Shown in pieces: positions 3,054 to 48,627 of a DNA stretch of 64,000 nt (its first letter is position 1; each line of letters begins with the position of its first letter). Location of the stretch: assembly GCA_020831625.1 (NCBI GenBank), contig JAFIGD010000022.1, forward strand, positions 1 through 64,000, written 5' to 3'. Position numbers and translations under genes: made by a program. The DNA comes from Verrucomicrobiota bacterium (GTDB lineage Bacteria > Verrucomicrobiota > Kiritimatiellia > SS1-B-03-39 > UBA6053). The notes under the pieces were generated by a model that worked only from the letters and a program-made list of their open reading frames with translations, ran no database searches and was not told the DNA's origin.

Positions 3054-3158
3054 GGATTTGCCTTGTTGTTGTATGGACGGCCATGAAGATGCGGCTCCAG
3101 GAACTCGAACGAATTGGTGCAATGCTGTATGGTAGCTTCTGGATTCATTTGTAGTCTC

Positions 3159-3333: not shown

Positions 3334-3359
3334 TTACGTAATAGAATGTAAAGGAGCTG

Positions 3360-4189: not shown

Positions 4190-4205
4190 TTTATCAGGTT
4201 AGATC

Positions 4206-6120: not shown

Positions 6121-6265
6121 GGCTTTGTCTTGCGTTATAAAGTCAGTTTTTGCCCTATATCTGTTAAAAATACAGGTGTAGACCTATTCGTCAAGCTTTT
6201 AAGATGATCTACTAGGCGAAATGATGGCCGAGCAAACATAGGATATTCCAATGGAAAACCTGCTA

Positions 6266-7231
6266 TTAGAGCAATTCTCCACTGATCATCTCGATGCTCA
6301 AAATCTCTGAAAACACAATCTCGGGTTTCTTTGCTCTAAAGCCGCCGTGTTTATCCGAACGGTTCACCACGCCAACCAAGTGGACTCTAGGGAAAATATG
6401 ATCATCTTGTCGAGAAATGATACGCTGTTTAAATGATGCGATTTTCTGACCTCTCTCTGGGCGACAAAACAGGGTGTGGCCCTGATAGTGAAATCCTATC
6501 GTATTAGTACTTTCAGTTGCACGGGTGATTTCACCTTCCAATGACACAAATTTTCCATGTTCAAGTTCGGGTAGAATAATTTCAGAATCTTCTTTTTCAG
6601 AATAAAAGACAGTTCGTTCCTCGGGAAATATTCTCATAGAGTCGATCACCGCACCGTTTTCAAACCTCCCTATTTCGAGCTCACAATTCTCATCGATGAT
6701 TCGAGCACACTGCCCCAGTAACGCTTTCGGGCATTGACAATAGAGATCAAATTGTCGCTTTGTGACCACAATCTCCTCATTTTGGTCATTTAACACCACC
6801 ACATGATCCGAATCCCGAATTTTCGCATTAGAGGCCCTACTTTTATCACCCACAGCTCCCAGGTGTTTGGAAATTTTTACAAGCCAAACCAACGCTGACA
6901 AGGATGCTTTGAGTATTCGATTCAGGTCCTTGGCGGCGGATGTCTCAAACAATCCATCCTCGGCAGCAATTTTTGCAGTGGACTTTAAGTATTGCCCGGC
7001 GAACACAGCCAACCCTGCCGGAATCAGGATCTGCCAACAACCTTTTTCAATTCGAACAGGCAGATTCAGGTCTTCCCGGTTCCAGGTGGGCTTTTCTTGC
7101 TCAACACAGTATCGGAATGCCTCATCGAACCCCAGAAGGGCGCTTGCAGCATCGCGTGCGTCCATTATCCCTTCCTCAACGGTATCTCCCTCATACTTTA
7201 AATACCCCAAATATCCCGGCTCGATAATCAT
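6266..7231 (-). CDS. Unknown protein coupled to the DNA methylase gene, 321 aa
   Basis: I do not recognise this family with certainty. The protein is 321 residues long, with a short hydrophobic stretch near residues 70-83 (LIPAGLAVFAGQYL) that could be a buried helix or a weak membrane segment, and a beta-rich C-terminal half. It has no Walker, TOPRIM or nuclease motif that I can see. The ATG overlaps the methylase stop by four bases (ATGA), so it was translated in step with the methylase and probably belongs to the same defence system. It could be a sensor, inhibitor or effector; the sequence does not decide. Confidence 0.65.
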   Translation of the reverse strand: MIIEPGYLGYLKYEGDTVEEGIMDARDAASALLGFDEAFRYCVEQEKPTWNREDLNLPVRIEKGCWQILIPAGLAVFAGQYLKSTAKIAAEDGLFETSAAKDLNRILKASLSALVWLVKISKHLGAVGDKSRASNAKIRDSDHVVVLNDQNEEIVVTKRQFDLYCQCPKALLGQCARIIDENCELEIGRFENGAVIDSMRIFPEERTVFYSEKEDSEIILPELEHGKFVSLEGEITRATESTNTIGFHYQGHTLFCRPERGQKIASFKQRIISRQDDHIFPRVHLVGVVNRSDKHGGFRAKKPEIVFSEILSIEMISGELL

Positions 7232-11030: not shown

Positions 11031-11041
11031 GGGGCCTTTTA

Positions 11042-11566
11042 TCAGGTGTCGGCGTGAAAACCGATCCGGGGTTTGGTTTTTTGTTTGGTATCCGTATCTT
11101 CTGCAATCAATTGCTTGATGGCCTTGAACACCATGGCGAACTGTTCGTCGTAGCGTTTTTCCATCGCGTTGATTTTCGCGGCCAGCTCGCGATTGGAATC
11201 CATGAGGCGGCGAAGTTGAACGAAGGTGCGCATGATGGCGATATTCACCGCCACCGCCTGCGGACTCCGCAGCACACTTGACAGCATGGCCACCCCCTGC
11301 TCTGTGAAGGCCATGGGAAGGTGTCGCAGGCCCTGACGGTCCGCTTTGGACATCACATTTTGTGATCTCCAAGTTTCAAACTCATCTTTTGTGAGTTCGA
11401 ACATGAAGTCCGCAGGGAACCGTTCCGAGTTTCTGCGCACGGCCTGTTTCAATGCGCGGGTTTCCACCCCATAGAGTTCCGCAAGGTCACGATCCAGCAT
11501 TACTTTTTCATGGCGTATCCAATGGATGAGCGGGGCAATGTTTTCTGTGGGAATCAGTTTTGTCAT
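11042..11566 (-). CDS. ORF6N-domain DNA-binding protein
   Basis: A 174-residue protein with an N-terminal ORF6N/KilA-N-like domain: IRHEKVMLDRDLAELYGVE, then KQAVRRN..RFP.DFMFELT and FTEQGVAMLSSVL, followed by a C-terminal coiled coil with NRELAAKINAMEKRYD. ORF6N domains occur in phage antirepressors and in stand-alone regulators or defence accessory proteins. Its start overlaps the end of the helicase gene by four bases and its stop lies 11 bases before the methylase start. It is therefore embedded in the helicase-methylase operon and may regulate it or target the complex to DNA. Confidence 0.9.
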   Translation of the reverse strand: MTKLIPTENIAPLIHWIRHEKVMLDRDLAELYGVETRALKQAVRRNSERFPADFMFELTKDEFETWRSQNVMSKADRQGLRHLPMAFTEQGVAMLSSVLRSPQAVAVNIAIMRTFVQLRRLMDSNRELAAKINAMEKRYDEQFAMVFKAIKQLIAEDTDTKQKTKPRIGFHADT

Positions 11567-28499: not shown

Positions 28500-29840
28500 A
28501 TGTCTGTTCGTGTGCTGTTCAAATTGTTGGTGTTGGGTGGCTTGAGTCTGGGGTTGCTGATTGCTTTGGCGGCGATCGGAGGTGTGGTGCACGAGCGAAA
28601 GATGCTTCAGATCGGGGTGGAGCGTGAGATCAGTGAAAGCTTCGCGGGCGAGCAGCAGGTGCTTGGGCCGCTGCTGGTGCTGCAGGTGGAGGACCGGTGG
28701 ACGGTGTCCGAGCGGCATTCGGGTTCGCAGGAGATGCGGGAGGTGGCGCGGTCGGAAACGCGATCGGTGACGGTATTTCCGGAGTCGCTGGAGGTGGACA
28801 CGGCGGCGGAGGTTGAGGAATTGTCGCGGGGAATTTTCAAGGCCAGGGTGTTTCAGTCTGTTTCGGAGATCCGCGGGGAATTCCGGTTGCCCGTGCTGTC
28901 GGAACTGCAATCGGTGGAGGGGCGTGAGACGCGGTTTCTCAATGCCCGGGTTGTTTTGGGGATTGAGGATATCCGGGGGCTTTCTTCGGTTCCGCGGTTT
29001 GTTTTGGGGGAGCGCGAGGCGGTCTGGGCCTCGGGGACGGGGATGACGCTTTCGGGGATTCAGGCTCCGCTGGAATGGGAGCCGGGAGAAAAGGCGGTGA
29101 AAACGCCGTTTGAACTGGATTTGGAGATTCACGGGATGGGGGCGCTGTTTGTGACACCGGCGGGCGCGGAAAACCGGATCCGCATGCAAAGCGCCTGGCC
29201 GCATCCAAGCTTCACGGGCAATTTTCTGCCAGCGTCGCGCCGGGTGAGTGCCGAGGGGTTCGAGGCGGAGTGGCGGGTGAACGGTCTGGCGAGCAATGTG
29301 CGTCAGCAGGTGCAGGGGGGAACGGCACTGTCCCGTCTGCAGCGTTTGGGGGTTCGTTTTATTGATCCGATCACTCCATATCCGCTGACGAACCGCGCGG
29401 TGAAATACGGGTTTCTGTTTATCGGGATCACCTTCATCTCGTTTTTTCTCTATGAAATCATCGCGGCGCTGCGGATTCATCCGATTCAATACAGCTTTGT
29501 GGGCTTTGCCCAGGCGTTGTTCTTTCTGCTGTTGCTGGGATTGTCGGAGCATATCCGTTTTGGGTTGGCCTACGGGGTGGCCACGGCGGCCACCTGCGGA
29601 TTGTTGGGGGTGTATGTGGCCGCAATTCTGAAGAGCCGGGCCCGGGGTGTCACCTTTGCGGGATTAATGCTGTTTCTGTACGGGTCGATGTGGGGGCTGC
29701 TTCAGTCGGAGGATCACGCGCTGGTGGCGGGGTCGGTGCTGCTGTTTGTCCTGCTGGGGTCGCTGATGTGGCTGACCCGGAAGGTGGATTGGTATGCGCT
29801 GACTTCGGCGGCTCCGGGAGAGGTGAAAGGAGAGAGGTGA
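28500..29840 (+). CDS. creD: CreD-like inner membrane protein
   Basis: A 446-residue membrane protein of the CreD family: an N-terminal helix, a periplasmic domain of ~270 residues with the family phrase FIDPITPYPLTNRAVKYGFLFIGITF at its end, and about six helices thereafter (IQYSFVGFAQALFFLLLL is typical). CreD affects envelope integrity and colicin/beta-lactam tolerance in proteobacteria; its biochemical role is unknown. AGGAG lies seven bases before the ATG. No creBC two-component genes are adjacent. A strong terminator follows at 29924. Confidence 0.92.
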   Translation: MSVRVLFKLLVLGGLSLGLLIALAAIGGVVHERKMLQIGVEREISESFAGEQQVLGPLLVLQVEDRWTVSERHSGSQEMREVARSETRSVTVFPESLEVDTAAEVEELSRGIFKARVFQSVSEIRGEFRLPVLSELQSVEGRETRFLNARVVLGIEDIRGLSSVPRFVLGEREAVWASGTGMTLSGIQAPLEWEPGEKAVKTPFELDLEIHGMGALFVTPAGAENRIRMQSAWPHPSFTGNFLPASRRVSAEGFEAEWRVNGLASNVRQQVQGGTALSRLQRLGVRFIDPITPYPLTNRAVKYGFLFIGITFISFFLYEIIAALRIHPIQYSFVGFAQALFFLLLLGLSEHIRFGLAYGVATAATCGLLGVYVAAILKSRARGVTFAGLMLFLYGSMWGLLQSEDHALVAGSVLLFVLLGSLMWLTRKVDWYALTSAAPGEVKGER

Positions 29841-29923: not shown

Positions 29924-29960
29924 GACCGACCCGTCACCTCCGACGGGTCGGTCTTCTTTT
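29924..29960 (+). terminator. Strong intrinsic terminator downstream of creD
   Basis: A perfect 12-bp stem GACCGACCCGTC/GACGGGTCGGTC (29924-29935 and 29942-29953) with a six-base loop, followed by TTCTTTT. It lies 84 bases after the creD stop and isolates creD from the relics and transporter operon further right. Confidence 0.92.
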
Positions 29961-30265: not shown

Positions 30266-30352
30266 ATGAAGAAAAAAACACTTAAAATTCAGATGGATTG
30301 TTCCGGTCCCGCCTTCGACAACGCAACGTTCACCCTTTGTGAATCAATATGA
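30266..30352 (+). CDS. 28-aa upstream ORF overlapping the operon start
   Basis: ATG at 30266 opens a 28-codon frame whose TGA overlaps the ATG of the DUF6785 gene (ATGA). The peptide begins MKKKTLKIQMDCSGPAFD, which resembles the start of a small protein often found with DUF932-type mobile-element genes, so it may be a truncated relic. Its position nevertheless allows translational coupling to the transporter operon, which itself lacks a good ribosome binding site. Either reading is uncertain. Confidence 0.4.
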   Translation: MKKKTLKIQMDCSGPAFDNATFTLCESI

Positions 30353-32757
30353 GCTTTCGTTCTATACTTCTGGGCTTTCTTTTGGGGCTGTTCATGGCCA
30401 CCTTCACCTATTTCAACGATCAGGTGGTTGAGAACACGTTTCTGATTGGTAATTTTCTGCCGGTCGGTGTGTTCGGGGCGGTGTTGCTGTTGCTGATGCT
30501 GGTGAACCCGCTGCTGGCATCGGTTCGCGCAAGCTGGGCGCTGAAAGGCGGGGAGATCGCGATCATCACCGCCATGGGGCTGGCCGCATGCGCCTGGCCG
30601 GGGTCCAACTTTTTCCGGGTGTCCACCGGGGTCACCGCCATGCCCCGTCATCTCATTCATTTCAACAGCAGTTGGCAGTCGAACCATCTGATGTCCTATG
30701 TGCCGGGCGCCTCCGATGAGCTGGCGCAGGGGCATGTCACCGACTGGAGACATTTTGCCGGGGTGATCCGGGACGCGGACGCGGGTTCAGCAACGCCCGC
30801 CGGCACGCTGAAGTCCTGGATGCTTCCGGAGGAAAGAGGGGAGTTCAGCCGCGCGGCGGAGATGGAACTGGTGTCGGCCAACGCCGCCCGTCAAATGACG
30901 ATGACGCTCAACCGCCTTCTGGGTCTGGGGGCGCGGTGGGACAGCACGGTTCTGGCCGGGGAGAGTGGGGACTCCTCCGAGGGACTCAGCGAAACCGCGC
31001 GGCTTTCATTAAACCGGCGGCGGCTGGTTCAGGCGTTTCCGGATCTGGTTCTGCCGCCTCCCCGGGGCTTGCCTATTCTGCTGGACGTGCGGGAACACCG
31101 CGAGACGGCCTTAACCCCCTTGCTGGAGGGACGTCCGCCGGATGCGCGTCTTTCCGTTTTCCAACTGCCCTGGCGTGTCTGGGCTCCCACCATCCGCGTC
31201 TGGGGCACCGTGGTGCTGGCGCTGGGTCTGGCCACAGTCTGTATGGCGCTGATTGTGCACCGTCAATGGGCCAACAACGAGTTGCTGCCTTATCCCGTGG
31301 CCCGGTTTCTGGAGGAAACCCTCGACCGTCCCGACGGTCAGCGCTGGCCGCGCATCCTCCACAATAAATTTTTCTGGATCGGCTTCGGCCTCATTTTTCT
31401 TTTCCATTTGCAAAACGGCATTGCCACCTGGTTTGAAGTGATTCCCAGTTTCCCGAACCGCATTGATTTCAGTCCGCTGGCGACCTTGTTTCCGAACGCG
31501 CGCCGCGTCCCCCGGGCCATGCAGGGTCTTTTCTCTTTCGGGGTGATTCCCTCCGTGATCGCCTTCGCCTTTTTTCTGGATTCCCGCACCTCGCTGTCCC
31601 TCGGTCTGACCAATTTATTCTGGACGATGTTCGGTTCGGTTCTCATCGCCAACGGGGTGATGGTGGGTTCCAGTTACATGGGCGGTGAAAACGGACCGCT
31701 GCTTCGCTTCGGGGCCTTTCTGGGATTCGGGCTGATGATCCTGTACACCGGCCGCCGCTACTACAGGGAAGCTCTTTTAGAAACGGTGGGATGCAAAGGA
31801 TCCCGCCCGCTGCCCGGCTACGTGGCCTGGGCCGGCCGCGGCATGGCGCTGGGCGTGGGCCTGTCGATCTACGGACTCCACGCGGCCGGCCTGAATTTTT
31901 TCTGGTCCCTGATTCTGACAGCGGTCTGTCTGAATGTTTTCCTGGTGATGGGACGGATTGTGGCGGAAACCGGCGCCTTTTTTCTTCAGCCGCAATGGCT
32001 GCCGATCGGCGTGTTCACCACCCTGTTCGGCATGGAGGCCATCGGCCCGACGCCCTACATTGTCATGGCCCTGTCCAGCGCCCTGCTGGTGGGGGATCCC
32101 CGGACCACCCTGATGCCTTTCCTGCTCAACGGCCTGAAGCTGGGGGATGTGGCCGCCAACAAGGACAAGCCCGCCACCGGCCGCCTGGGAATCCTGCTGC
32201 TTCTGGTGGTGGCGGGATCTTTTGTTGCGGCGGGAGCCACGACCCTGTGGTTTCAGTACAACCGCGGCGTGAGCGGCGACATCTGGGCGAATCAGTCCCT
32301 GCCGGCCATGTCCTTTTTCAATCTCGACCGGGTGGTCGGAGAATTAACCGCCGGCGGGGAACTTTCCGCGGTGACACAGAACACCGCCAACCGGGCGGTT
32401 CCCGTGCCGTCGCCCGACAAAGGGGCGGTGATGTGGCTGTTGCTGGGCGGCGCGTTGGTGCTGATCTTCGCGATCGCCCGTCTGCGCCTGACCTGGTGGC
32501 CGTTTCATCCGGTGATTTTTCTGATTTGGGGCACGTATCCCATGGGGCTTTTCGGCGGCAGCTTTTTTCTGGGCTGGCTCATCAAGGAAGGAGTGGTGAA
32601 AACCTTCGGGACCCGCGGGTTTCATCTGCTCAAGCCTCTGATGGTCGGCATTATCTCCGCGGAGGTGCTTTCCGCGATCCTTTGGGGCGTTGTCTCCTGG
32701 ATCTATTATCTGAACACGGGCCGCCCGCCCATCACCTACCGTATTTTTCCCGCATGA
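30349..32757 (+). CDS. DUF6785/DUF6784-family large membrane protein, OPT-like
   Basis: An 802-residue polytopic membrane protein with about fourteen hydrophobic helices and one large soluble loop (residues ~110-290). The N-terminus LLGFLLGLFMATFTYFNDQVV and the C-terminal half (GRIVAETGAFFLQPQWLPIG) match DUF6785/DUF6784 proteins common in Planctomycetota and Verrucomicrobiota; these show distant likeness to oligopeptide (OPT) transporters. Transport is inferred, not proven. It is the first gene of a coupled operon: its TGA overlaps the next ATG, and a second OPT-like protein is the sixth gene. A dyad operator and promoter lie 150-190 bases upstream. Confidence 0.8.
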   Translation: MSFRSILLGFLLGLFMATFTYFNDQVVENTFLIGNFLPVGVFGAVLLLLMLVNPLLASVRASWALKGGEIAIITAMGLAACAWPGSNFFRVSTGVTAMPRHLIHFNSSWQSNHLMSYVPGASDELAQGHVTDWRHFAGVIRDADAGSATPAGTLKSWMLPEERGEFSRAAEMELVSANAARQMTMTLNRLLGLGARWDSTVLAGESGDSSEGLSETARLSLNRRRLVQAFPDLVLPPPRGLPILLDVREHRETALTPLLEGRPPDARLSVFQLPWRVWAPTIRVWGTVVLALGLATVCMALIVHRQWANNELLPYPVARFLEETLDRPDGQRWPRILHNKFFWIGFGLIFLFHLQNGIATWFEVIPSFPNRIDFSPLATLFPNARRVPRAMQGLFSFGVIPSVIAFAFFLDSRTSLSLGLTNLFWTMFGSVLIANGVMVGSSYMGGENGPLLRFGAFLGFGLMILYTGRRYYREALLETVGCKGSRPLPGYVAWAGRGMALGVGLSIYGLHAAGLNFFWSLILTAVCLNVFLVMGRIVAETGAFFLQPQWLPIGVFTTLFGMEAIGPTPYIVMALSSALLVGDPRTTLMPFLLNGLKLGDVAANKDKPATGRLGILLLLVVAGSFVAAGATTLWFQYNRGVSGDIWANQSLPAMSFFNLDRVVGELTAGGELSAVTQNTANRAVPVPSPDKGAVMWLLLGGALVLIFAIARLRLTWWPFHPVIFLIWGTYPMGLFGGSFFLGWLIKEGVVKTFGTRGFHLLKPLMVGIISAEVLSAILWGVVSWIYYLNTGRPPITYRIFPA

Positions 32758-34040
32758 ACGAACCCTGCACACTCCTGGAAACCTATGCCTGGATGGGCCT
32801 GCGCATCGCGGTGCCGGCCCATTGGGAACTGCGTCGTCACGGAATGAGCCCCGAAGCCGGAGCCCTGGTCTGGGTGGACCGGCACGCCCAGCGGCTCGAA
32901 CTCCGCTGGCTGCGTCCGGAGAAAGAGCCGGACCCGGCGCGAATGGTCGAACACACCCGTGATGCGCTCAAAAAGGATCAGCCGGATCTCCATTTGTCCA
33001 ATCTGCCCTCCGGTCTGCGCCCCTGGCAGGGGGTTCTCCACGGGCAGGAGCCGCGCATCTGTCAGACGGCCGCATATTTTCCCGATCACCGGGTCTTGCT
33101 GCAGCTGACCTTCAGTCTGGAGGGGGAGCGGGAGGCGCTGAACCGGCTTCTGCGTGAAATTCTGTCCTCGGTGGCGGTGGCGGAGGATCCGGCCCGGGCG
33201 ACGCGCTGGCGGGCGTTCGGAATCGACTGCACGGTGCCGGAAACGTGGACGCTGCGGCGCGCGGAAATTCTTCCCATGGACGCGAGGCTTCAGTTTTCCT
33301 GTCCGAAACGCGGACGGCTTCAGCGTCAGAACACCCTGTTTGAAGTCCGCCGCCTCGGCATGGTCCGGGAATGGTTTGACGGCAATCTGGTGCGGTTCGC
33401 GGAAAGCCGCGCACTGGGGCCGGCACCGGAGATCCGGGCGGATATCAATGACGGCAAATCCATTTGGGTTGATTCCTCGCTGGGCCGGTTCCCGCTTCTG
33501 GGCGGATTCGGTCCCAAAGACCGGGAACAGTTGAAACTGTGGCACGAACCCTCCCAGAACGCCATGTTCATTCTCCGGCTTTTCAATCCCGGTTCCGGTG
33601 TTCACCGGATCGACGATGTGCAGGTTGCCGGTGTGCCCTGCGCGTCCCCGCTTCCGGCGGAGCAGCAGCCCTCGAGAATCACGAATATGCCGATTCTGGA
33701 AGCCCTGCCGGTTCGGAATCAGGCGGTGAGCTTTGTGCGGGAAGGGCAGGGTGGCATCCTCCGCGCCCCCGTCCGGCCGCGGTGGTGGACCCGCGCGCCT
33801 TTCACCTGGTTTTTCCCTTTCCGCGACCGCCGCGGTTTCGGCCTCGACGGCTTCGGTCTCGAAGTGTGGAAGGCCTGCGACGGAGAGCGCACCGTGGAAA
33901 ATATTTGTGAACAATTCGCCCGCCGACACGGCATCACCTTCCAGGAGGCCCGGGTGGCGGTCTGTCAGTTCCTGGAAGTGCTCACCCGCCGTGAGCTGCT
34001 CGTGATCCATGTGCCAAAGGAGTGTCTGGAAGCCTCATGA
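32754..34040 (+). CDS. Protein with PqqD-like C-terminal domain, 428 aa
   Basis: The 428-residue protein has no signal peptide. Two repeated alpha/beta halves (residues ~10-140 and ~150-310; each starts with a motif like MGLRIAVPAHWELRR / FGIDCTVPETWTLRR) are followed by a PqqD-like winged-helix domain (~345-425): FGLDGFGLEVWKACDGERTV then ICEQFARRHGI. PqqD domains bind leader peptides of RiPP precursors or act as recognition elements. No radical-SAM or precursor gene is visible here, so it may recognise a partner protein or the transporter. ATGA overlaps at both ends couple it to its neighbours. Confidence 0.7.
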   Translation: MNEPCTLLETYAWMGLRIAVPAHWELRRHGMSPEAGALVWVDRHAQRLELRWLRPEKEPDPARMVEHTRDALKKDQPDLHLSNLPSGLRPWQGVLHGQEPRICQTAAYFPDHRVLLQLTFSLEGEREALNRLLREILSSVAVAEDPARATRWRAFGIDCTVPETWTLRRAEILPMDARLQFSCPKRGRLQRQNTLFEVRRLGMVREWFDGNLVRFAESRALGPAPEIRADINDGKSIWVDSSLGRFPLLGGFGPKDREQLKLWHEPSQNAMFILRLFNPGSGVHRIDDVQVAGVPCASPLPAEQQPSRITNMPILEALPVRNQAVSFVREGQGGILRAPVRPRWWTRAPFTWFFPFRDRRGFGLDGFGLEVWKACDGERTVENICEQFARRHGITFQEARVAVCQFLEVLTRRELLVIHVPKECLEAS

Positions 34041-35512
34041 AAGAAATCGTCGCCAAAGACCAGGTCGATCTGGGATCCGCCCGCTGCGTGCAACTGGCCT
34101 TCGCGGGCATGGTGTTCCGGCTGTTCCGGTCCCTGATCACCGTGGCCATTCTCGGCATGGCAGTGGCCTTTCTCGCCCACATGCTGGCCTACAGCGTCAT
34201 GTCCGGCGAAAGCGTCCGCCGCATTTGGCTCGAACTGGAGGCGGACCGCACCCTGGGTGTGCAGTTGCGCCGTCTGGAAAGTCCCGACCCCGCGGCTACG
34301 ATTCTGACACATTGGCAGCGGCGCGACGACTCCCGCATGGCCGAACACCGCGCCTGGGCCGGCCTCAATGAGGCCGACGCCGCCGAGATTCAGCGGATTG
34401 CGGACGCGGTGCGGGTGTTTGAGCGGACCATTCACTCGTTCAGTCCCCGCCAACGCGCCATTCTCGCGGGGGACCGCGGCACCCTGGAATTGCTTAACGC
34501 CCTGGCGGATGCGTCCACCCGCGAGGCGTTTCTGGAGCGAAACCGGCAGTTGGAGCGAACGGTTCCCCTCGGAAGCGCGGAGGCGCTCACCCGGCTGGCG
34601 GAGGAGGACTGGCCGGCCCTGCAGAAGTCCCTGGCCCGTGTTCGCGCCGGGCATCTCCGCGCCACCGGGACCCTGGAGGCCTCCCTGTCGCCCCAAACCC
34701 TCGGCGAAACCCTCATCGCCACCCCCGGCCGGGTGGAGGAACTCGCCGCCGCGGCCGGCTTTGACCTTCAGGGAATGGATTTTCCCCGTCTCGCCGCGTT
34801 CGCCGGCGACGCCCGGCTGCAGCGGCGGATCGAGGAGACCCTGGGCTCCATGGTGATCCGCCGCGCTCTTTCCCGAAGCCTGAATGTCCCGGTCGCTGAC
34901 GTGCACAACCTCCGTCTGCTCACCTGGCTGGCGGACAGTCCCGGCCACGCCGAGGAATTTGACGCGTTACTGGCGGAGGCGGAGGCGTTTGAGCCTCTGG
35001 GCGCGGCGGATGTACACCGGGTGGCCGCCCGGGCGCTGCATGTGCGCCGCCTGCAGCGTCTGGTGCCCGAAGCGCCCGATCTCGATGCGGCGGACAGCCT
35101 GTTCGGACTGGACACAAGCGCCCGCTGGCTCATCCTGCTGGCCTTTCTCGTCTGCGTCATCGGCGTGGCCAACGCCATGCTCATGTCGGTCACCGAACGC
35201 TTCACCGAAATCGCCACCATGAAGTGTCTGGGGGCGATGGATAAATTTATTATGCTGATGTTTGTCTTTGAAGCCGCGATTCAGGGACTGCTCGGCGGCA
35301 TCTTCGGGGCGGTGCTGGGTCTGGTGCTGGCCTGGATTCGGGGCGCGTCCGAGTTCGGCAACACCCTGGCGGTGGCCCCGGTCCTCGGAGCCGTGCTTAT
35401 CGCCGCCCTCTCCGCCCTCGGGATCGGCATCCTGCTCGCGGTGCTGGCCGCCGTGGGTCCCTCTCTGGTCGCGGCCCGTCTCGCCCCCATGGAGGCCATG
35501 CGTGTTGAATAA
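34037..35512 (+). CDS. MacB/LolCE-type FtsX-domain ABC permease
   Basis: A 491-residue permease: one N-terminal helix (residues ~20-45), a periplasmic region of ~300 residues, mostly helical, and three C-terminal helices (~355-480) with the FtsX signature NAMLMSVTERFTEIATMKCLGA. The last residues (LAPMEAMRVE) are the usual end of MacB-type permeases. Such proteins with an ATPase work as mechanotransmission complexes on lipoproteins, peptides or cell-wall enzymes. The ATG at 34037 overlaps the previous stop (ATGA); a GTG 15 bases earlier is less likely. The ATPase partner follows 18 bases after the stop. Confidence 0.88.
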   Translation: MKEIVAKDQVDLGSARCVQLAFAGMVFRLFRSLITVAILGMAVAFLAHMLAYSVMSGESVRRIWLELEADRTLGVQLRRLESPDPAATILTHWQRRDDSRMAEHRAWAGLNEADAAEIQRIADAVRVFERTIHSFSPRQRAILAGDRGTLELLNALADASTREAFLERNRQLERTVPLGSAEALTRLAEEDWPALQKSLARVRAGHLRATGTLEASLSPQTLGETLIATPGRVEELAAAAGFDLQGMDFPRLAAFAGDARLQRRIEETLGSMVIRRALSRSLNVPVADVHNLRLLTWLADSPGHAEEFDALLAEAEAFEPLGAADVHRVAARALHVRRLQRLVPEAPDLDAADSLFGLDTSARWLILLAFLVCVIGVANAMLMSVTERFTEIATMKCLGAMDKFIMLMFVFEAAIQGLLGGIFGAVLGLVLAWIRGASEFGNTLAVAPVLGAVLIAALSALGIGILLAVLAAVGPSLVAARLAPMEAMRVE

Positions 35513-35530
35513 TTTTCGGAATGTAACCCT

Positions 35531-36304
35531 ATGACCGTCCCCCAGCCCTCTCCACAAACCGACCCCGCCGAACGCCGCGCGGTGATTGTCCGCACGCTGA
35601 ACCTTGAAAAGGTCTACGGCAGCGGGGACGCCGCGACCTACGCCCTCAACGGCGTGGACAGCGCCATCTACCGCGGCGAACTCATTGCCATCATGGGGCC
35701 CTCCGGTTCCGGAAAAAGCACCTACTTCAACATGATCGGGGCCCTCGACGCGCCCACCAAAGGCCGCATTCTCATCGACGAGGTGGACGTCGCCCAGCTT
35801 TCCGCCGCCGAACTCGCCTTTCTCCGCTGCCGCAAAATCGGCTACATCTTTCAGTCCTACAACCTTATCCGCTATATGACCGCGCTCGAAAATGTGACCG
35901 TGCCCATGACCTTCTCCGGCACTTCCCCCGAAGAGGCCCACCGCCGCGGCATGGAGCTGCTCGATCTCGTCGGCCTCGGCGAGCGCTGGCAGCACCGGCC
36001 CATCGAAATGTCCGGCGGTCAGCAACAGCGCGTGGCCATCGCCCGCTCTCTGGCGAACCAGCCGCAGATTCTCCTCGCCGACGAGCCCACCGCCAACCTT
36101 GATTTAAAAACCGGCGAGGAAATCCTCGGAATTCTCCGCCGCATCAACGAGGAGCGGGGCGTCACGGTCATTTGCTCCACCCATGACCACCGGCTGCTGC
36201 ATCTCTGTCACCGCATCATGTGGATCCGGGACGGCAAGGTCGAGCGCGTGGAGCGCCGCGAGGATCTCCGCATCAAAACCGGCAAAATCGGGGGGGAATC
36301 CTGA
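35531..36304 (+). CDS. LolD/MacB-type ABC ATPase, first copy
   Basis: A 257-residue ATPase with Walker [11 protein letters not shown]-loop FQSYNL, signature [15 protein letters not shown], Walker [13 protein letters not shown] and a switch His in STHDH. FtsX-type systems use this LolD/MacB clade. The N-terminus has a longer Pro-rich lead before LEKVYGSGD. The TGA overlaps the ATG of the large M28-like/FtsX protein (TGATG), so the gene order permease-ATPase-permease is translationally coupled. A second, distinct copy ends the operon. Confidence 0.94.
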   Translation: MTVPQPSPQTDPAERRAVIVRTLNLEKVYGSGDAATYALNGVDSAIYRGELIAIMGPSGSGKSTYFNMIGALDAPTKGRILIDEVDVAQLSAAELAFLRCRKIGYIFQSYNLIRYMTALENVTVPMTFSGTSPEEAHRRGMELLDLVGLGERWQHRPIEMSGGQQQRVAIARSLANQPQILLADEPTANLDLKTGEEILGILRRINEERGVTVICSTHDHRLLHLCHRIMWIRDGKVERVERREDLRIKTGKIGGES

Positions 36305-39300
36305 TGCGCATCCTTCATCTGCTGCCGGCGCTGCTGTTCCTCCCGCTCACCGCCGGGATTCAGGACGCGGCCTTCCACGGGGATCTCGCCCGGCTGACCG
36401 CCACCGCGCACCGCCTGCCCGGCAGTCCGGAGCAACAGGCCGCCGCCGCGCATATCGAAAGCAGGCTCAACGCCATGGGCCTCGACGAGGTGCACAGCCT
36501 TGAATTCGACACCTGGACACCCGAGATTCTCCGCTCCGAACTGTTGCTGGACGGAGAGACGCTGCCCATCCTGCCCATGCGACCGAACGTGTTGATCTGG
36601 CCCAACACCCCGGACGAAGGCCTGCGCGCCCGGGTGCTCTATGTCGGAGCCGGGGAGATCACCGACTATGGCGACCGCAATCCGGACGGAGCCATTGTGC
36701 TGATGGACTACGCCAAGGGCGGCAATTGGCGGCTCGCCTTCTCCCTCGGCGCCCGCGCGGTGATTTTCCACGGCGCGCCTGAAGACACGCCCTCCGCGCC
36801 CGTGCACGTGACCGCCCCCGCCAACCTGCTCCGTTTTTATCTGGACCGCGACACCCTTTCCGACCCCGCGGCGCTGGAAGGGCGGGAGGTCACCCTTCAC
36901 AGTCAAACCCGATGGACGCCCCGCACCGACCGCGTGCTGTACGCCCGCGTCCGCGGCACCGATCCCGATCCGCGCGGACCGGTGCTGCTGGCGGCCGACA
37001 CGGATTCTTTCGGCAACGTGCCGCACCGGAGTCCCGGCGCCCGCGCCGCCGCCAACAGCGCGCTGCTGCTGCAGTTCGTCGAACATTTCGCCGACAACCG
37101 TCCCCGTCACGATGTGGCCTTTCTGTTCACAAGTTCACGCGCCTACAATCACCAGGGCACCCGCTATTTTTACGAGGCCTTCACGCTTCCGGAGCGCCGG
37201 ATCACCGAAATCCGGGACGGTCTCGCGCAGGAGGCCGCCGATTTGGACGCCGCTCTGGCGCTGTTGCGGGAAGAGGGGCTCTCCGCGGAAACCGCCTCGC
37301 CGGCCGGGCTGCTGCTGCAGCGGCAGTTCTCTCAGGAGGCCTCCTATCTCAATGACGACCTCACCGCAGAGATCCAGCGCGCCCGTCTGGCGCTTCCCCG
37401 CGACCGCCGCACGCTCGACACGCCCGAAACCCGGATCATCACCCGGCAGATTGAACGCCGCTCGGTGGTGGACGATTACCGCCGGGCCCTGTTTCGCGGC
37501 GGCGTCCCGGCCCTGCTGGCGTCCCTGGAGGACGAAACCCCGCCGGATCTTCCGTCCTTCGGTGAGGATGAGGCGGCAAACCACCGCATCCGGCGGGAGG
37601 TTTTCCCCTCCGTTGCGGATGAAATCCTGCAGAACACCCGCCGGCGACTCCGCCGCCGTCTGGAGGAGCTGGCGGCGGAAGAACAGTTCTGGGAAAACGC
37701 CCGCACCCTCCGCGCCGAGCGCGAAACCCTTCCGGGGGTTCTCCTGCACATCAGTCTGAATCTGGGCGACGCCTGCTCACGCTGGGGCGTGGTGTTGGGC
37801 GATCCGCTGGATCAGATGATGAATTTATCACCAATGACCGCCGGCGATCTGCCCGGGAACTATGTGCGGCTGCTCACCCAGCTCAACGAACTCGCCGACG
37901 ACCCCGAAGTCATGCCCAATCTCGTGCGCCGCACCCTCCGTGACACCCGCCACGGCCCCGGATTCGTCGGTGAGCCCTTCACCTCCAGCGGCAGAATTGC
38001 CGGCATGTATTCGGTCTACAATTTCGCCCTCATGACCGAGAACGACGCCCGGTTGCGGGACGGACATCCCGGAGACACCGCCGCGGCGCTGGATGCGGAC
38101 GCGCTGCTGACGCAGGGCCGCGAAGCCCTGACCCTGGTCGAGGGGCTGCTCGGCATTCCCAATCCCGGGGTGAGCCGGTCCATCAGCCGCGTGGCCCAAA
38201 CCAAGCGGCCCGAGTGGCGCAACGGACGTCCCTGGGGGGACTTCGCCTCGCGCACGGTGGTGGGGGGGCTGGCGGAAAGCCGTCCGGCCGATGACGCCCT
38301 GCTGGCCCACTGGCCCGTTCCCCGCTTCGGTTTCGGCACCGGCACGCACTGGAGCAGCCTGAAGGAAACCGCCGCCTACCGGGACTTCATGCCCTACGGA
38401 TTCCAGCGCGCCAACGCCTTCGGGCGCTTCTCGATTCTCGGCCACCGCAGTCACGACACCCAGCTCGCGGTGATGGGCGCCCACTTCGGAGACGACGGCA
38501 AACTGTCGGCCATCTCCGATCAGAGCAGTCAGCTCTTCTCCCGCTTCGGCGCCAGCCTGCGGATGACCCTCTTCCGCGCCGAGGGCCATGTGCTTCAGGC
38601 CAACCCCGGACATCCGACCTTTCCCACCAGTCTGCAGATTCTCAAAGGAGCCACCAATTTCGCATTCCAGCCCGAACGCGTGCTCTGGGGCACGGTGGAC
38701 GACTTCAGTTTCGCCTATCTCGCCGAGCGGGAGCTGGACAGCGGCATCAAGATTTTTCAGCGCCTCGGACCCGTGATCATGGCCGAGCCCGGAGAGGATC
38801 CCGTCCTCGGGACCGGCCTCCCCACCGCCGATTTGCGCAACCCCGTGCGGGTCAGCCGCTACACCGCCGCCAATCTCTGGGATCTCAATGAGTCCCGGCT
38901 GACCACGCTGCGGTCCCGGGGCATCAGCCGCACCGACCTGGAGCGCCACCACAGCCGAGCCCTCTCCGCCCGCGAACAGGTCGGTGAAAGCCGCAGTCTG
39001 GCCGAGGAGGAGTCGCTCCTGCTCTCCAGCGCCTCCATTTCCCACCGCCTCTATGAGCCGCTGCGCAGTTCGATGGACGACCTGGTCACCGCCATTGTCA
39101 TGCTTCTGCTGCTCAGTCTGCCCTTCGCCTTCGCCATGGAGCGTCTGCTCATCGGCTCCACCACCATTTACGGACGGGTCGGCGGCTTCTGCGGCTTTTT
39201 CATCGCCACCTTCGGGCTGCTCTACTTCCTGCATCCCGGCTTTGCCATTTCCTCGGCACCGATGATTATTTTCCTGGCCTTCACGGTGCTGGGGCTGTCC

Positions 39301-41157
39301 GCGATTGTCATCCAGATGCTGATCCGCCGGTTCCGTCAGGAACTGAAACTGCTGCAGGGGCAGGGGAGTCTGGCGCACGACGCCGAAGTCTCCCGCGCCG
39401 GCACCATGCTCGCCGCCGTGGGCATGGGCATGTCCACCATGCGCCGCCGGCCCACCCGCACCTTCCTCACCGCCATCACCGTGGTGGCCCTCACCTTCAC
39501 TATTCTCTGCTTCGCCTCCTTCACCCGCGAAATGGGAGTCCGCGCGACCTACCTCAGCCCCAGTCCCGAAGACCAACCCGACGGCGTGCTGATCCGCAAC
39601 CTCAACTACGGACCGCTCCCCAACGGCATCCGCGAACTGCTGCTCCGCTATGAACAGGATGAAACCCGCATCACCAGCCAGTGGTGGCTGCGCCGTCAGG
39701 GGGGCGACAGCCCCGCGATCCTGATCAGCAACCCCGCCACCGGCCGCGCCGTGGAAATCGAGGCGCTGGTGGGGCTGGATCCCCGCGAGGTGGAGCGCTG
39801 GCCCGCGATGGGCGCGCTCGACCCGGAACCCGGCCGCTTCCGCGATCAGCTTCGCGAAGACGCGGTTTTTCTGCCGGCCTTTCTGATGGAATTGCTCGAG
39901 GTCTCGCCCGGAGACGAGGTGCTGCTCCGCGGCCGCCGCGTCACCGTGGGCAACGGCATTGAACTCAACCGCCTGCAGAACCTGCGGGGTATCGACCAGG
40001 AATCCCTGCTGCCGCTCGACGCGCGCCAGGAGGATCCCACCGGCGCCCAGGCTCCGGATTCGGAGGCGGATGTGCTGGATCTGGACGGCGAAGTGGAGCA
40101 GCATTTTGTCCGCCTCGGGGTCGGGGAGGTGGCCCTCACCTCCGTGAACCGCGTCCGCGAACTCGGAGGAAAGCCCCACATCCTGACCCTCTATCCCTCG
40201 GAAACCCTGCGCGCCCGCGATCTGGCGCAGACCCTGGCGGTGCTGGTGTCCTCGCCCGTGTGGGTGGTGAGCGAGACCGGTGTGGAGCGCATGATCCTTA
40301 CCCATCTCACTCAGATTTCCGGAATCTTCGCCATCGCCATTCCCATGCTGCTCGGCGGACTGATCATTTTCGGCACCCTGCTGGGATCGATCACCGACCG
40401 CGAAAAAGAGATTTACACCTTCAGCGCCCTCGGCCTCGGACCCTCCCATGTGGGCATGCTCTTCTTCGCGGAGGCGGGGGTCTACGCGGTGGTCGGCGGC
40501 ATGGGCGGCCAGCTCATCGCCCAGATCGTGGCCCGGGTGGCCTCGCTGCTGGCCCGTCACGGCGTCATCGACCCCATTTCCATGAACTTCTCCTCCACCA
40601 ACTCGCTCTTCGCTATTGGTGTGGTGATGGCCCTGGTGCTGATCTCCTCGCTCTATCCCGCCTACCGGGCCTCCAAAAGCGCCAACCCCGGACTCGCCCG
40701 CGAATGGTCCATGCCTGAACCGGCAAACGGCGTGATCCAACTCACCTTCCCTTTCACCGTCTCCGCGTATGACATCACCGGTGTGGTCAGCTTCCTCGCC
40801 GAACACTTCCGCAGCTTCGACGATGCCGGGTTCGGCAAATTCGCCACCACCCGCGCCGCCATCCTGCGCAATGAGGAGGGGCAGCTCCAGCTCAAAGCCA
40901 GCCTGGCCCTGGCACCCTTCGACCTCGGAGTGACCGAGGAACTCACCCTGGAGGCCAGTCCCTCGGAAATCGAAGGCATCGACGAAGTCCGCGTCACCAT
41001 CCGCCGCCTCAGCGGGGCCGAGGGCGACTGGATTCGCGGCACCCGCGTGTTTCTCAAGGAACTCCGCACCCAATTCCTCGTCTGGAGAACCCTCTCCTCC
41101 GAAAAAATCGAGGCCTACCGCGCCAAAACCTTCTCTGAACTCGGGGAGGAGAACTGA
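36304..41157 (+). CDS. 1617-aa fusion of degenerate M28-like domain and FtsX permease
   Basis: Signal peptide (MRILHLLPALLFLPLTAG), then an M28 aminopeptidase-like region (~20-320) with an inserted PA-like domain (~115-165), an alpha-helical part (~320-600), further extracytoplasmic sequence to ~925, a membrane block (~929-1013, three helices), another helix at ~1047 (TFLTAITVVALTFTILCFA), an extracytoplasmic domain (~1080-1325) and an FtsX-type C-terminal block (~1330-1470), ending in a ~150-residue soluble tail. The M28 metal ligands are missing: the GAHxD strand reads LAADTD, the DNASG loop reads ARAAANSA, and EExGL reads SSRAYN (residues ~225-280). It is probably a binding module, not an active peptidase. 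Fifth gene of the operon. Confidence 0.8.
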   Translation: MRILHLLPALLFLPLTAGIQDAAFHGDLARLTATAHRLPGSPEQQAAAAHIESRLNAMGLDEVHSLEFDTWTPEILRSELLLDGETLPILPMRPNVLIWPNTPDEGLRARVLYVGAGEITDYGDRNPDGAIVLMDYAKGGNWRLAFSLGARAVIFHGAPEDTPSAPVHVTAPANLLRFYLDRDTLSDPAALEGREVTLHSQTRWTPRTDRVLYARVRGTDPDPRGPVLLAADTDSFGNVPHRSPGARAAANSALLLQFVEHFADNRPRHDVAFLFTSSRAYNHQGTRYFYEAFTLPERRITEIRDGLAQEAADLDAALALLREEGLSAETASPAGLLLQRQFSQEASYLNDDLTAEIQRARLALPRDRRTLDTPETRIITRQIERRSVVDDYRRALFRGGVPALLASLEDETPPDLPSFGEDEAANHRIRREVFPSVADEILQNTRRRLRRRLEELAAEEQFWENARTLRAERETLPGVLLHISLNLGDACSRWGVVLGDPLDQMMNLSPMTAGDLPGNYVRLLTQLNELADDPEVMPNLVRRTLRDTRHGPGFVGEPFTSSGRIAGMYSVYNFALMTENDARLRDGHPGDTAAALDADALLTQGREALTLVEGLLGIPNPGVSRSISRVAQTKRPEWRNGRPWGDFASRTVVGGLAESRPADDALLAHWPVPRFGFGTGTHWSSLKETAAYRDFMPYGFQRANAFGRFSILGHRSHDTQLAVMGAHFGDDGKLSAISDQSSQLFSRFGASLRMTLFRAEGHVLQANPGHPTFPTSLQILKGATNFAFQPERVLWGTVDDFSFAYLAERELDSGIKIFQRLGPVIMAEPGEDPVLGTGLPTADLRNPVRVSRYTAANLWDLNESRLTTLRSRGISRTDLERHHSRALSAREQVGESRSLAEEESLLLSSASISHRLYEPLRSSMDDLVTAIVMLLLLSLPFAFAMERLLIGSTTIYGRVGGFCGFFIATFGLLYFLHPGFAISSAPMIIFLAFTVLGLSAIVIQMLIRRFRQELKLLQGQGSLAHDAEVSRAGTMLAAVGMGMSTMRRRPTRTFLTAITVVALTFTILCFASFTREMGVRATYLSPSPEDQPDGVLIRNLNYGPLPNGIRELLLRYEQDETRITSQWWLRRQGGDSPAILISNPATGRAVEIEALVGLDPREVERWPAMGALDPEPGRFRDQLREDAVFLPAFLMELLEVSPGDEVLLRGRRVTVGNGIELNRLQNLRGIDQESLLPLDARQEDPTGAQAPDSEADVLDLDGEVEQHFVRLGVGEVALTSVNRVRELGGKPHILTLYPSETLRARDLAQTLAVLVSSPVWVVSETGVERMILTHLTQISGIFAIAIPMLLGGLIIFGTLLGSITDREKEIYTFSALGLGPSHVGMLFFAEAGVYAVVGGMGGQLIAQIVARVASLLARHGVIDPISMNFSSTNSLFAIGVVMALVLISSLYPAYRASKSANPGLAREWSMPEPANGVIQLTFPFTVSAYDITGVVSFLAEHFRSFDDAGFGKFATTRAAILRNEEGQLQLKASLALAPFDLGVTEELTLEASPSEIEGIDEVRVTIRRLSGAEGDWIRGTRVFLKELRTQFLVWRTLSSEKIEAYRAKTFSELGEEN

Positions 41158-41159
41158 TC

Positions 41160-43235
41160 ATGTCTGACAAAACCGCCAAACCCAAACGCCGTCCCAAAGA
41201 GCGGGGCGTGGACAAAGAATTCGAAATATTCCGCGACCAGATGCGGCCCCCCGGGAAATTCGAGGAGGGCTTCTCCTGGGAATCCTTCATCGGAGCTCTT
41301 TTCATCGGCATGGTCATGGTCCCCGGCGCCATCTACATGACCCTGCTCGCGGGCGAGTCCATCGGACCCGCCGCGCAATGGGTGACGCTGATTCTGTTCC
41401 TCGAAGTGGCCCGCCGCGCCAACCGCGACATTCCCAACGCCCAGATCTTCACGCTGTTCTACATCTCCGGGGCGCTCATGGCCACCGCCAGCGGCTCCGC
41501 CGGCAACTTCCACGGCGGACTGCAGGCGATTTACAATCAGTTCTTTGTGCAGTCCGACGCCGCCCGCGCCGCCGGGATCGCCGAACTCATGCCCTCCTGG
41601 GTGGCCCCCAATGATCCCGCCGTGCTCGAAAGCCGGTCGTTTCTCCGCATCGAATGGCTCGCGCCCATCGGGCTCATGATCTTCACCATGATTCTCGGAC
41701 GCATCGACAGCATGATTGTGGGGTACGGACTCTTCCGCCTCACCAGCGACATCGAAAAACTTCCTTTCCCCATGGCCCCCGTGGGGGCCCAGGGCATCCT
41801 CGCCCTTTCCGAAGAACAGAAAGGCCACGAGATCTCCTCTGAAAGCGGCAGGGAAGGGGTCTCCAAGTGGCGCATGTTCTCCATCGGATCCGTCATCGGA
41901 CTGATCTTCGGCTTTGTGTATCTGGGCATTCCCACCATCACCGGCGCGCTGCTCAACGAACCCATCATTCTCATTCCGCTGCCGTTCGTCGACTTCACCC
42001 GCGACACCGCCGGCATTCTGCCCGCCGCCGCCGTGGGGCTGGCCTTCGACCTCGGCTTTGTCATCGTCGGCATGGTGCTGCCGTACTGGGCCATGGTCGG
42101 CTCTTTCATCGGCCTGCTCGTCACCCTCATCGTCAATCCCATCCTTTACCGCGGCGGGGTGCTGACCTCCTGGAATCCGGGCGACAATCTGCAGGAGACC
42201 TTTTACAAAGGCAACATCGACTTTTATTTCAGCTTCTCCATCGGGATCGCGCTCGCCATCGCCATCGCCGGCATTGTCAGCGTCACCCTCAAAACCCGCC
42301 GCGACCGCGCCCGGCGTGAGCGCGAGCAGAACCCGCTCGCGCTCACATCCTCGACGATTCCCGAAGGGCGGGGCGACATCCGCGCGCTCTGGGTGTTCGC
42401 CACCTACCTCATCGCCTGCGCGCTCTACATCGGCGTGTCCATGTATCTGCTCTACATCACCGACGGCAGCATTCACTGGCCGGTGGTGTGGATCATGCTC
42501 TTTTACGCCTTTGTGTTCACCCCCTTCATCAGTTACATGACCGCCCGCATGGAGGGCATCGCCGGACAGGTGGTGACCATTCCTTTTGTGCGCGAGGCCT
42601 GTTTCATTCTCTCCGGCTATTCCGGGGTCGCGGTGTGGTTCCTGCCCATTCCCCTGCACAACTACGGTCAAATGACCGTCTTCTACCGGCAGTGCGAACT
42701 CACCGGCACCAAGTTCACCTCCATCTGGAAATCCGAAGTGCTGCTCATGCCCATCATCCTCGGTTTCAGCCTGCTCTTCGCGCACATGATCTGGCAGATG
42801 GGCGACATCCCCGGCCCCAACTTCCCCTTCGCGCAGCAGTGGTGGGAAGTGACCGCCGCGCAGAAATCCCTGATTTTCTCCTCGACCCTCGGCGGCTTCA
42901 CCGAATTTGAGCAGGCCATCAACCCCGGCTACATCGGCTGGGGCGTGGGGCTCGGCTGTCTCGCCTTCGCGCTCATGGGCTGGTTCGCGTTGCCGGTCTT
43001 CCTGATTTACGGTGTGGTGCGCGGACTTAATCAGACCCTGCCCTTCATGGTCATTCCCCAGTTCTTCGGCGCGCTGCTTGGACGCTTCTATTTCCAGCGC
43101 AAATTCGGCGCGAAGAAATGGCGGCAGATGATACCGGTCATCTTCGCCGGGTTCAGTTGCGGCATGGGCCTCATCGCCGTGTTCGCCCTCGGATTCGTTT
43201 TCCTCAAAGGCAGCGTCATCAGTCTTCCCTTCTAA
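41160..43235 (+). CDS. OPT-like (peptide transporter-type) membrane protein
   Basis: A 691-residue polytopic membrane protein with a cytoplasmic N-terminal extension (residues 1-45, Lys/Arg-rich) and about fourteen helices. ESFIGALFIGMVMVPGAIYMTLLAGESIGPAAQWV and FPMAPVGAQGILAL near residue 200 resemble OPT/YSL-family oligopeptide or metal-chelate transporters; annotated relatives in the PVC phyla are called 'peptide transporter'. The substrate is unknown. It follows the M28-like/FtsX gene after two bases and precedes the second ATPase by ten bases. Confidence 0.82.
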   Translation: MSDKTAKPKRRPKERGVDKEFEIFRDQMRPPGKFEEGFSWESFIGALFIGMVMVPGAIYMTLLAGESIGPAAQWVTLILFLEVARRANRDIPNAQIFTLFYISGALMATASGSAGNFHGGLQAIYNQFFVQSDAARAAGIAELMPSWVAPNDPAVLESRSFLRIEWLAPIGLMIFTMILGRIDSMIVGYGLFRLTSDIEKLPFPMAPVGAQGILALSEEQKGHEISSESGREGVSKWRMFSIGSVIGLIFGFVYLGIPTITGALLNEPIILIPLPFVDFTRDTAGILPAAAVGLAFDLGFVIVGMVLPYWAMVGSFIGLLVTLIVNPILYRGGVLTSWNPGDNLQETFYKGNIDFYFSFSIGIALAIAIAGIVSVTLKTRRDRARREREQNPLALTSSTIPEGRGDIRALWVFATYLIACALYIGVSMYLLYITDGSIHWPVVWIMLFYAFVFTPFISYMTARMEGIAGQVVTIPFVREACFILSGYSGVAVWFLPIPLHNYGQMTVFYRQCELTGTKFTSIWKSEVLLMPIILGFSLLFAHMIWQMGDIPGPNFPFAQQWWEVTAAQKSLIFSSTLGGFTEFEQAINPGYIGWGVGLGCLAFALMGWFALPVFLIYGVVRGLNQTLPFMVIPQFFGALLGRFYFQRKFGAKKWRQMIPVIFAGFSCGMGLIAVFALGFVFLKGSVISLPF

Positions 43236-43245
43236 GGATATCATC

Positions 43246-44019
43246 ATGACCGAAGCCCCCTCCAAAGAAATCATCCCCTCCGGCGCCACAACCAAACCCA
43301 TCGTGCAGGTCCACGACGTCTCCAAGATCTACCGCCTTCGCGAAGAGACCGTCTACGCCCTCAACAAGGTCAGCCTGACCATCTATCAGGGAGAATACCT
43401 CTCCATCATGGGGCCGTCCGGCTCCGGGAAATCCACCCTCTTCAACATCGTCGGCGCCCTCGACAACGCCAGCGAGGGCTACGCCCAGATTGGAGACATC
43501 CGCCTCACCCATCTGACTCCCCGCCAGCTCTCCCACGTGCGCTGCAACTACATCGGATATATTTTCCAGGCCTTCAACCTGATCCCCTCGCTCACCGCCC
43601 TCCGCAACGTCGCCCTCCCGTGTATCTTCATGGGGGTTCCCCCCGAAGAGGCCGACAAGCGCGCCGCCGAAGTGCTCACCCAGGTCGGCCTCGGCCACCG
43701 CCTCGACCACACCCCCGGCGAACTGTCCGGCGGACAGCAGCAGCGAGTCGCCATCGCCCGCGCCCTCATCAACGACCCCTGCATCATTCTCGCCGACGAA
43801 CCCACCGCCAACCTCGACCTGCAGACCGGATCGGATGTGATTCAGATCCTCAAGAACCTCTCCGTCGAGCGCGGGGTCACCATCATCACCGCCACCCACG
43901 ACCACAAGATGCTCAGCCAGTCCGACCGCGTCGTCCGCATCCGCGAAGGGCAGATCGAGGCCATCCAAAACCGCGACGAACTCGAGATCGAAGAAGGCAC
44001 CATCGAATTCGCGCACTGA
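43246..44019 (+). CDS. LolD/MacB-type ABC ATPase, second copy
   Basis: A 257-residue ATPase with Walker [11 protein letters not shown]-loop [10 protein letters not shown], signature [15 protein letters not shown], Walker [13 protein letters not shown] and switch His ATHDH. It is similar in length and layout to the first ATPase of the operon but clearly different in sequence, so the two may drive different permeases (the 491-aa FtsX protein and the M28-like/FtsX fusion). It is the last gene; a palindromic repeat pair follows 37 bases after its stop. Confidence 0.94.
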
Positions 44020-45682: not shown

Positions 45683-45790
45683 CCATAAAAAATTATACAG
45701 GATTGAACAATATCTCTATCTTTTTACACATAGTCCCGCCCAGTGTAAGGTATGGACGTTTTGAGTCTCAACACCCAGCCCCCAAATTCA

Positions 45791-48616: not shown

Positions 48617-48627
48617 TCGTCCCCAAC

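Follow-up and report, generated by a model that had tools for sequence, protein, structure and literature searches.

A conserved bacterial gene module combines a type VII-like ABC core with OPT-type membrane proteins and may act on envelope glycans

We analyzed a 64,000-nucleotide stretch of DNA from a Verrucomicrobiota bacterium (assembly GCA_020831625.1, contig JAFIGD010000022.1, positions 1 to 64,000; the window) and found that seven adjacent genes, here termed A to G (positions 30349-44019), form a conserved system that is co-inherited as a unit. The genes encode a DUF6785 membrane protein (A), a protein ending in a PqqD domain (B), two FtsX permease proteins (C and E), two ATP-binding cassette (ABC) ATPases (D and G) and a second multi-pass membrane protein (F). 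We tentatively regard A to G as one conserved ATP-driven envelope machine, whose substrate is most likely a glycan or glycoconjugate; its assembly into a physical complex, its direction of transport and its substrate are what we infer from the evidence below. An initial annotation, made from the DNA letters alone, had described seven co-directional genes, and open reading frame (ORF) calls bear this out: all are on the plus strand, and neighbors overlap or lie no more than 18 base pairs apart. B begins at ATG 32754, with an ATGA overlap with the end of A, and 18 base pairs separate C from D. These overlaps and short gaps suggest an operon.

The module families are clustered in three loci of the window's own genome, with three copies of F and a DUF6785 gene at each locus. 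Among 58 relatives, F is present in 28, and all 28 have A and E as well. Only two of the 30 relatives without F contain A (G003 and G056, both less than 90% complete; Fisher p 1.5e-14), and in G003 one contig carries A together with the beginning of E, with F not found. A scan of GTDB genomes returned at least 560 confirmed stretches, the best 80 of which are from Verrucomicrobiota, Kiritimatiellota, Lentisphaerota, Planctomycetota, Omnitrophota, Sumerlaeota, Chitinivibrionales and Thermodesulfobacteriota; the closest among those listed is found in a Puniceicoccaceae metagenome-assembled genome (91% identity). Gene calling at 118 F-bearing loci, many of them truncated by contig ends, located the module set together at most of them; these loci span Verrucomicrobiota, Kiritimatiellota, Lentisphaerota, Planctomycetota, Sumerlaeota, Omnitrophota, Fibrobacterota and Thermodesulfobacteriota. 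Gene order varies and the set persists (AB1b2CDEFD, ACDEFDB1b2, DAEFCD, CDEAFB1b2 and others, B1 and b2 being the two portions of B), and 373 of 500 adjacent module gene pairs overlap or sit at most 50 base pairs apart. A, E and F show strongly correlated divergence (r 0.90-0.96 over 54 loci). For C the correlation is lower (0.70-0.79 Pearson, about 0.3 by rank), because it occurs with and without a large ectodomain. On the co-occurrence statistics, we rejected a chance assembly. The seven families named in the initial annotation do occur together in many genomes and phyla, rearranged in order yet clustered, and their independent occurrence in related genomes is largely limited to A without F in G003 and G056 and to additional DUF6785 genes in G054. 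Across phyla, no extra neighbor gene recurs with the module at the loci compared.

We next consider the parts. A Pfam scan identified PF20581 and PF20580 in A, PqqD in B, FtsX in C and E, and ABC_tran in D and G. The FtsX domain (PF02687) is matched by C with an E-value of 5.9e-15, and its cytosolic loop is conserved in the alignment. For C and the C-terminal half of E, a hydropathy plot is compatible with a permease of four transmembrane (TM) helices with an ectodomain between TM1 and TM2; a 330-residue region separates the first helix of C from its FtsX domain, and E has extra TM segments. The best NCBIfam matches of D and G are LolD/MacB, below the equivalog cut-offs (220.6 and 217.4 bits, respectively, versus 307.75 bits for LolD), and C reaches 32.5 bits versus the LolCE equivalog cut-off of 362. 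Walker A, signature, Walker B and H-loop motifs are found in both ATPases and, using strict patterns, in 128 of 154 homologues. These matches and motifs show C, D and E to hold the predicted parts of a type VII (LolCDE-like) ABC system, in agreement with the mechanotransmission type initially assigned to the FtsX/ATPase pairs. In a tree of 156 ATPase sequences, the C/E-adjacent (D) and F-adjacent (G) enzymes form two groups, with three changes each versus about 43 in shuffles, and the lone ATPase of Desulfobacterota loci groups with D. It thus appears that the minimal engine consists of C, E and D, as in LolCDE, and that G is an old addition. The two ATPases noted at the outset are present in the window; the second is missing from Desulfobacterota and is therefore not a core part, so that the minimal core is A, B1, b2, C, D, E and F. 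We rejected the module as the genome's own Lol system, since a better full-length LolC/E-like protein is encoded elsewhere in the genome (C46, 297 bits).

Gene E most likely starts at ATG 36304, the first codon of a signal peptide (MRILHLLPALL), in a frame open from 36220 to its end at 41157. An AlphaFold2 model of the E ectodomain (predicted local distance difference test score, pLDDT, 91) matched BSAP aminopeptidase (Z 27) and the transferrin receptor including its PA domain (Z about 26) in a fold search, and a profile search returned M28 aminopeptidases (3.4e-20) and nicastrin (1.9e-12). Pfam detects M28 in 20 and nicastrin in nine of 39 E homologues. In the HxD motif of this family the Asp is invariant and the His is kept in 4/39 sequences, the bridging Asp column contains Asp in 9/39, and the last His column is lost in the alignment to 2ek8. 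None of the 39 homologues has the catalytic Glu-Glu pair, with Glu occupying one of the columns in two. The alignment and the predicted fold show the ectodomain to be a degenerate M28/PA domain that has lost its metal and catalytic positions family-wide, as the initial mention of a degenerate peptidase had anticipated, and we rejected E as an active M28 peptidase on the basis of these lost zinc and catalytic ligands. The 148-residue tail of E, which has no Pfam or PDB match, contains 14 invariant columns in 30 sequences.

F was modeled with AlphaFold2 from 30 sequences (pLDDT 81), and its only strong fold match is the barley OPT/YSL transporter YS1 (7wsr; Z 22.4 over 551 residues). F itself has no Pfam match; 12 of 30 homologues match PF03169, with a best E-value of 7.2e-11. 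The model shows a predicted OPT/YSL fold for F. A profile comparison of A with F gave a weak match (74% or 46% in two runs, controls at most 3%) at a shared E-x-LP-[FY]-P motif, and PF03169 is not matched in 27 members of the A family. An OPT-like nature of A is thus suggestive only; of the two OPT-like proteins originally proposed, F is borne out by its fold, and for A there is this weak profile match. G054 carries DUF6785 genes away from F (contig C42, 28457-30865; contig C19, 3693-6074), and the family thus has members outside the module.

B matches the PqqD winged-helix profile (PF05402, E-value 5.5e-10, residues 366-421) and scores below the NCBIfam cut-offs. Most other loci encode B1 and b2 separately, and a separate b2 protein matches PF05402 at 1e-9. 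Judged from this arrangement, the window's B is a fusion of B1 and b2: the PqqD match at its C-terminal end stands, and the supposed tail is usually a protein of its own. B1 is Trp-rich, unclassified and without a Pfam or PDB match. A leader-binding role, as initially suggested, found no support: no partner of the type seen with ribosomally synthesized and post-translationally modified peptides (RiPPs) is consistently present across the loci, where precursors below the 70-80-residue ORF limit would escape detection. A radical SAM/SPASM gene adjoins two of four Desulfobacterota modules. RiPP biosynthesis was rejected as the principal interpretation for lack of a conserved partner.

The substrate assignment is based on co-inheritance in one class and on linkage in other classes of the same phylum. 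In four Thermodesulfobacteriota genomes (Desulfobacula, a Desulfobacterales bin, Desulfocapsa and Desulfovibrio) the module adjoins a conserved seven-gene glycan cluster, co-directionally in three of the four. This cluster encodes GT28/MurG-like glycosyltransferases, two GT4-type glycosyltransferases, a histidine phosphatase and a DUF2334/polysaccharide-deacetylase-like protein. We examined 100 genomes of Desulfovibrionia, the class around the Desulfovibrio genome, and found F as a single copy in 39. A glycosyltransferase of the cluster, termed GTa (E-value <1e-150), is present in the same 39 genomes and in one other, G086 (p 4e-27). F and GTa lie within 25 kb of each other in 16 of the 39, on one contig at distances from 52 kb to megabases in 12, and on different contigs in 11; they are thus unlinked in at least 12 genomes. 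Closer inspection of three Desulfovibrionia genomes showed the glycan genes divided between two other places, with all of them retained, and a DUF2334 gene still preceding C in two. On a quick single-gene RpoB tree, F changes state nine times (at least seven forced by supported branches), and all changes but that of G086 are common to GTa, leaving about eight shared. Given the dispersed genes and about eight shared gains or losses, neither linkage nor one common ancestor accounts for the F/GTa pattern. The module of Desulfovibrionia very probably works with glycan synthesis, and of the two substrates first considered, peptide or oligosaccharide, the latter has gained support from the co-inheritance of the Desulfobacterota module with this pathway.

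How could such a module work? C and E may form a permease heterodimer, with D, plus G where present, hydrolyzing ATP. The resulting movement would be transmitted to the periplasmic pseudo-peptidase domain of E, a putative substrate receptor or gate comparable to nicastrin and the transferrin receptor, which share its fold. F, together with the OPT-like A, could form the route by which a large, polar molecule of the envelope, most likely a glycan or glycoconjugate, passes the membrane, and B1/b2 could be a cytosolic adaptor that recruits the substrate or a synthesis enzyme. Type VII ABC systems relay ATP-driven movement across the membrane for work in the periplasm, without pumping through the ABC core (PMC5985334). 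Since such an engine does not itself carry a substrate, the OPT-fold protein or proteins would supply the path. It is possible, if doubtful, that the module represents a new class of machine for translocating envelope glycans or glycoconjugates, with a type VII (FtsX) ABC engine driving OPT-fold proteins via a pseudo-aminopeptidase receptor, in the Planctomycetes-Verrucomicrobia-Chlamydiae (PVC) group, Fibrobacterota, Sumerlaeota, Omnitrophota and Thermodesulfobacteriota.

Several observations weigh against the module as a glycan-handling envelope machine. The Thermodesulfobacteriota glycan genes are not found near PVC modules, and the window's Verrucomicrobiota relatives contain no clear orthologues of GTa or of the DUF2334 protein, GTa having MurG-level matches alone and DUF2334 being nearly absent; we accordingly rejected the idea that the glycan pathway of Desulfobacterota partners the window's module. 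A paralogous module subtype in the window's family follows pseudopilin genes instead of glycan genes: three co-directional genes with the N_methyl motif lie directly upstream of it in the window's genome (contig C103), in G001 and in G004 (loci L185, 8490-10728; L183, 15709-18041; L051, 2-1991). The OPT kinship of A is weak, the OPT proteins known so far are importers of peptides or metal chelates, and the shared gains and losses rely on the single-gene tree. The substrate in the window's lineage may thus differ from that in Desulfovibrionia; the theme common to these settings is the envelope.

The import activity of known OPT proteins raises the alternative of a peptide or metal-chelate importer, in which the pseudo-aminopeptidase captures periplasmic peptides, FtsX movement loads the OPT-fold proteins and the PqqD-type b2 receives the cargo. 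The closest solved fold to F is that of an Fe(III)-phytosiderophore transporter, M28 domains bind peptide N termini and the PqqD family binds peptides. We nevertheless consider an importer rather unlikely, as the co-inheritance with glycosyltransferases in Desulfovibrionia would be unexpected and type VII ABC systems are not import drivers (PMC5985334). The C/E/D parts list, identical to that of LolCDE, could instead point to an extraction machine, in which these proteins pull a lipid-anchored molecule, such as a lipoprotein or glycolipid, from the inner membrane so that it can be transferred, A/F and B being accessories. A type VII core that operates with a periplasmic hydrolase has a precedent in YbbAP-TesA (PMC12646458), and lipid-linked glycans would be compatible with the glycan link. 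This we judge unlikely, because the conserved OPT-fold proteins would be left unexplained and the C46 protein is the better Lol candidate of this genome.

The pseudopilin genes are compatible with an FtsEX-like signaling or gating device, in which C/D/E regulates an envelope enzyme or a pilus-like structure, with A/F sensing a ligand or letting it in; control of periplasmic enzymes is a common role of FtsX systems (PMC7668044). Across phyla, however, the module has no conserved periplasmic enzyme as a neighbor, rendering such a device improbable. Finally, the operon could contain two independent systems, an OPT-type importer (A/F) and a MacB/Lol-like exporter (C/D/E/G), each half resembling a known, self-sufficient transporter class. 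This is very improbable: the halves are kept together over several phyla in differing gene orders and three times in one genome, the divergence of A, E and F is correlated as described above, and single-half cases are limited to the extra DUF6785 copies in G054 and to incomplete genomes.

We compared the module to described systems. LolCDE likewise combines one LolD-type ATPase with two different FtsX-domain permeases, as in the Desulfobacterota core of C, E and D, and has the conserved FtsX loop; in contrast, E has a pseudo-M28 ectodomain of 900 residues and a further TM block as well as a new tail, the module's partners are OPT-like proteins and B, and the window's genome has its separate LolC/E-like protein. 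In YbbAP-TesA (PMC12646458), a type VII ABC core also works with a periplasmic hydrolase-fold partner, but TesA is a separate, active esterase, whereas the M28 domain of E is part of the permease polypeptide and no longer has the catalytic residues; an OPT partner is absent from YbbAP. F shares the whole OPT/YSL fold with barley YS1 at about 12% identity, and at the loci studied here it always occurs with an ABC engine. Known OPT/YSL members act alone by ion coupling. Nicastrin and the transferrin receptor are membrane proteins in which an M28 fold has lost its catalytic residues as well; E differs in being bacterial, in its helical insert and in its FtsX fusion. Like Wzx/Wzy and Wzm/Wzt polysaccharide exporters, the Desulfobacterota module adjoins glycosyltransferase genes, where a glycan exporter is expected, but no module protein matched those families and its ABC type is FtsX/LolD-like.

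Each part of the module belongs to or resembles a known class, and we regard the whole as a variant of type VII ABC systems. The initial annotation knew of no system with this set; in agreement, our search of the open-access literature, outside which most subscription papers fall, found no work naming DUF6785/DUF6784 or describing the set. The module gives these domains and an unclassified OPT branch a context, and it unites protein classes that are not known as partners; hundreds of genomes retain it, often in multiple copies. An ATP-driven OPT pair would be a new kind of system. A role in glycan handling would make the module a new kind of exporter or assembly machine for the bacterial envelope, one in which ATP powers OPT-fold proteins. 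As the module and a glycan gene are gained and lost together in sulfate reducers, a direct genetic test is possible.

Table 1. Positions of the module genes, of domains of E and of the linked glycan clusters
Feature	Position	Strand	Description
Gene A	30349..32757	+	802-residue multi-pass membrane protein, DUF6785 + DUF6784, possibly OPT-like; PF20581 E-value 9e-66, PF20580
Gene B	32754..34040	+	B1-b2 fusion, predicted cytosolic, without TM segment; PqqD at C-terminal end
Gene C	34022..35512 (alternative start ATG 34037)	+	FtsX permease; PF02687, TM plot, alignment
Gene D	35531..36304	+	LolD/MacB-type ATPase, C/E-linked group; own group on ATPase tree
Gene E	36304..41157	+	1617 residues: signal peptide, pseudo-M28 ectodomain, TM block, FtsX permease and conserved tail
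E ectodomain	36358..39090	+	Predicted M28 core containing a PA insert and a long helical insert, followed by a beta-rich part; metal and catalytic residues not retained
E FtsX permease domain	40327..40677	+	PF02687, E-value 2.4e-10
E tail	40711..41154	+	148 residues after last FtsX helix; conserved; expected to be cytosolic
Gene F	41160..43235	+	691-residue membrane protein, predicted OPT/YSL fold; AlphaFold2 model, barley YS1 match
Gene G	43246..44019	+	Second LolD/MacB-type ATPase, F-linked group; absent from Desulfobacterota loci
Glycan clusters	L154 7981-15544; L155 265-10056; L156 1483-7626; L157 3488-9626		Thermodesulfobacteriota

Terminator-like hairpins flank the unit at 29924-29953 (plus strand) and 44219-44202 (minus strand), a weak signal with 17 such sites versus 12.6 in shuffles. 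Upstream lies a CreD gene (28500-29840, plus strand), and downstream are genes for an FAD oxidoreductase and two beta-helix/F5-8C proteins; the latter are adjacent and large (954 and 824 residues; 45752-51102), with beta-helix and F5/8 type C repeats. In several modules, genes of the 23S rRNA-intervening-sequence protein family (PF05635, two tested) are found as if inserted (L065, 14042-14536 and 5641-6171; L041, 13913-14401; L061, 7442-7975). A secreted-looking protein of about 210 residues without a Pfam match is encoded upstream of B1 in Desulfobacterota modules only (L147, 11987-12640; L149, 12078-12695; L150, 7777-8553; L151, 15729-16364). At the other end of the window, the region 970-11372 has a lower GC content (0.44 at 4-8 kb) and encodes AAA ATPases and a protein with the DNA-methylase-like motif DPACGSGAF; from these features it looks like a defense or restriction island.

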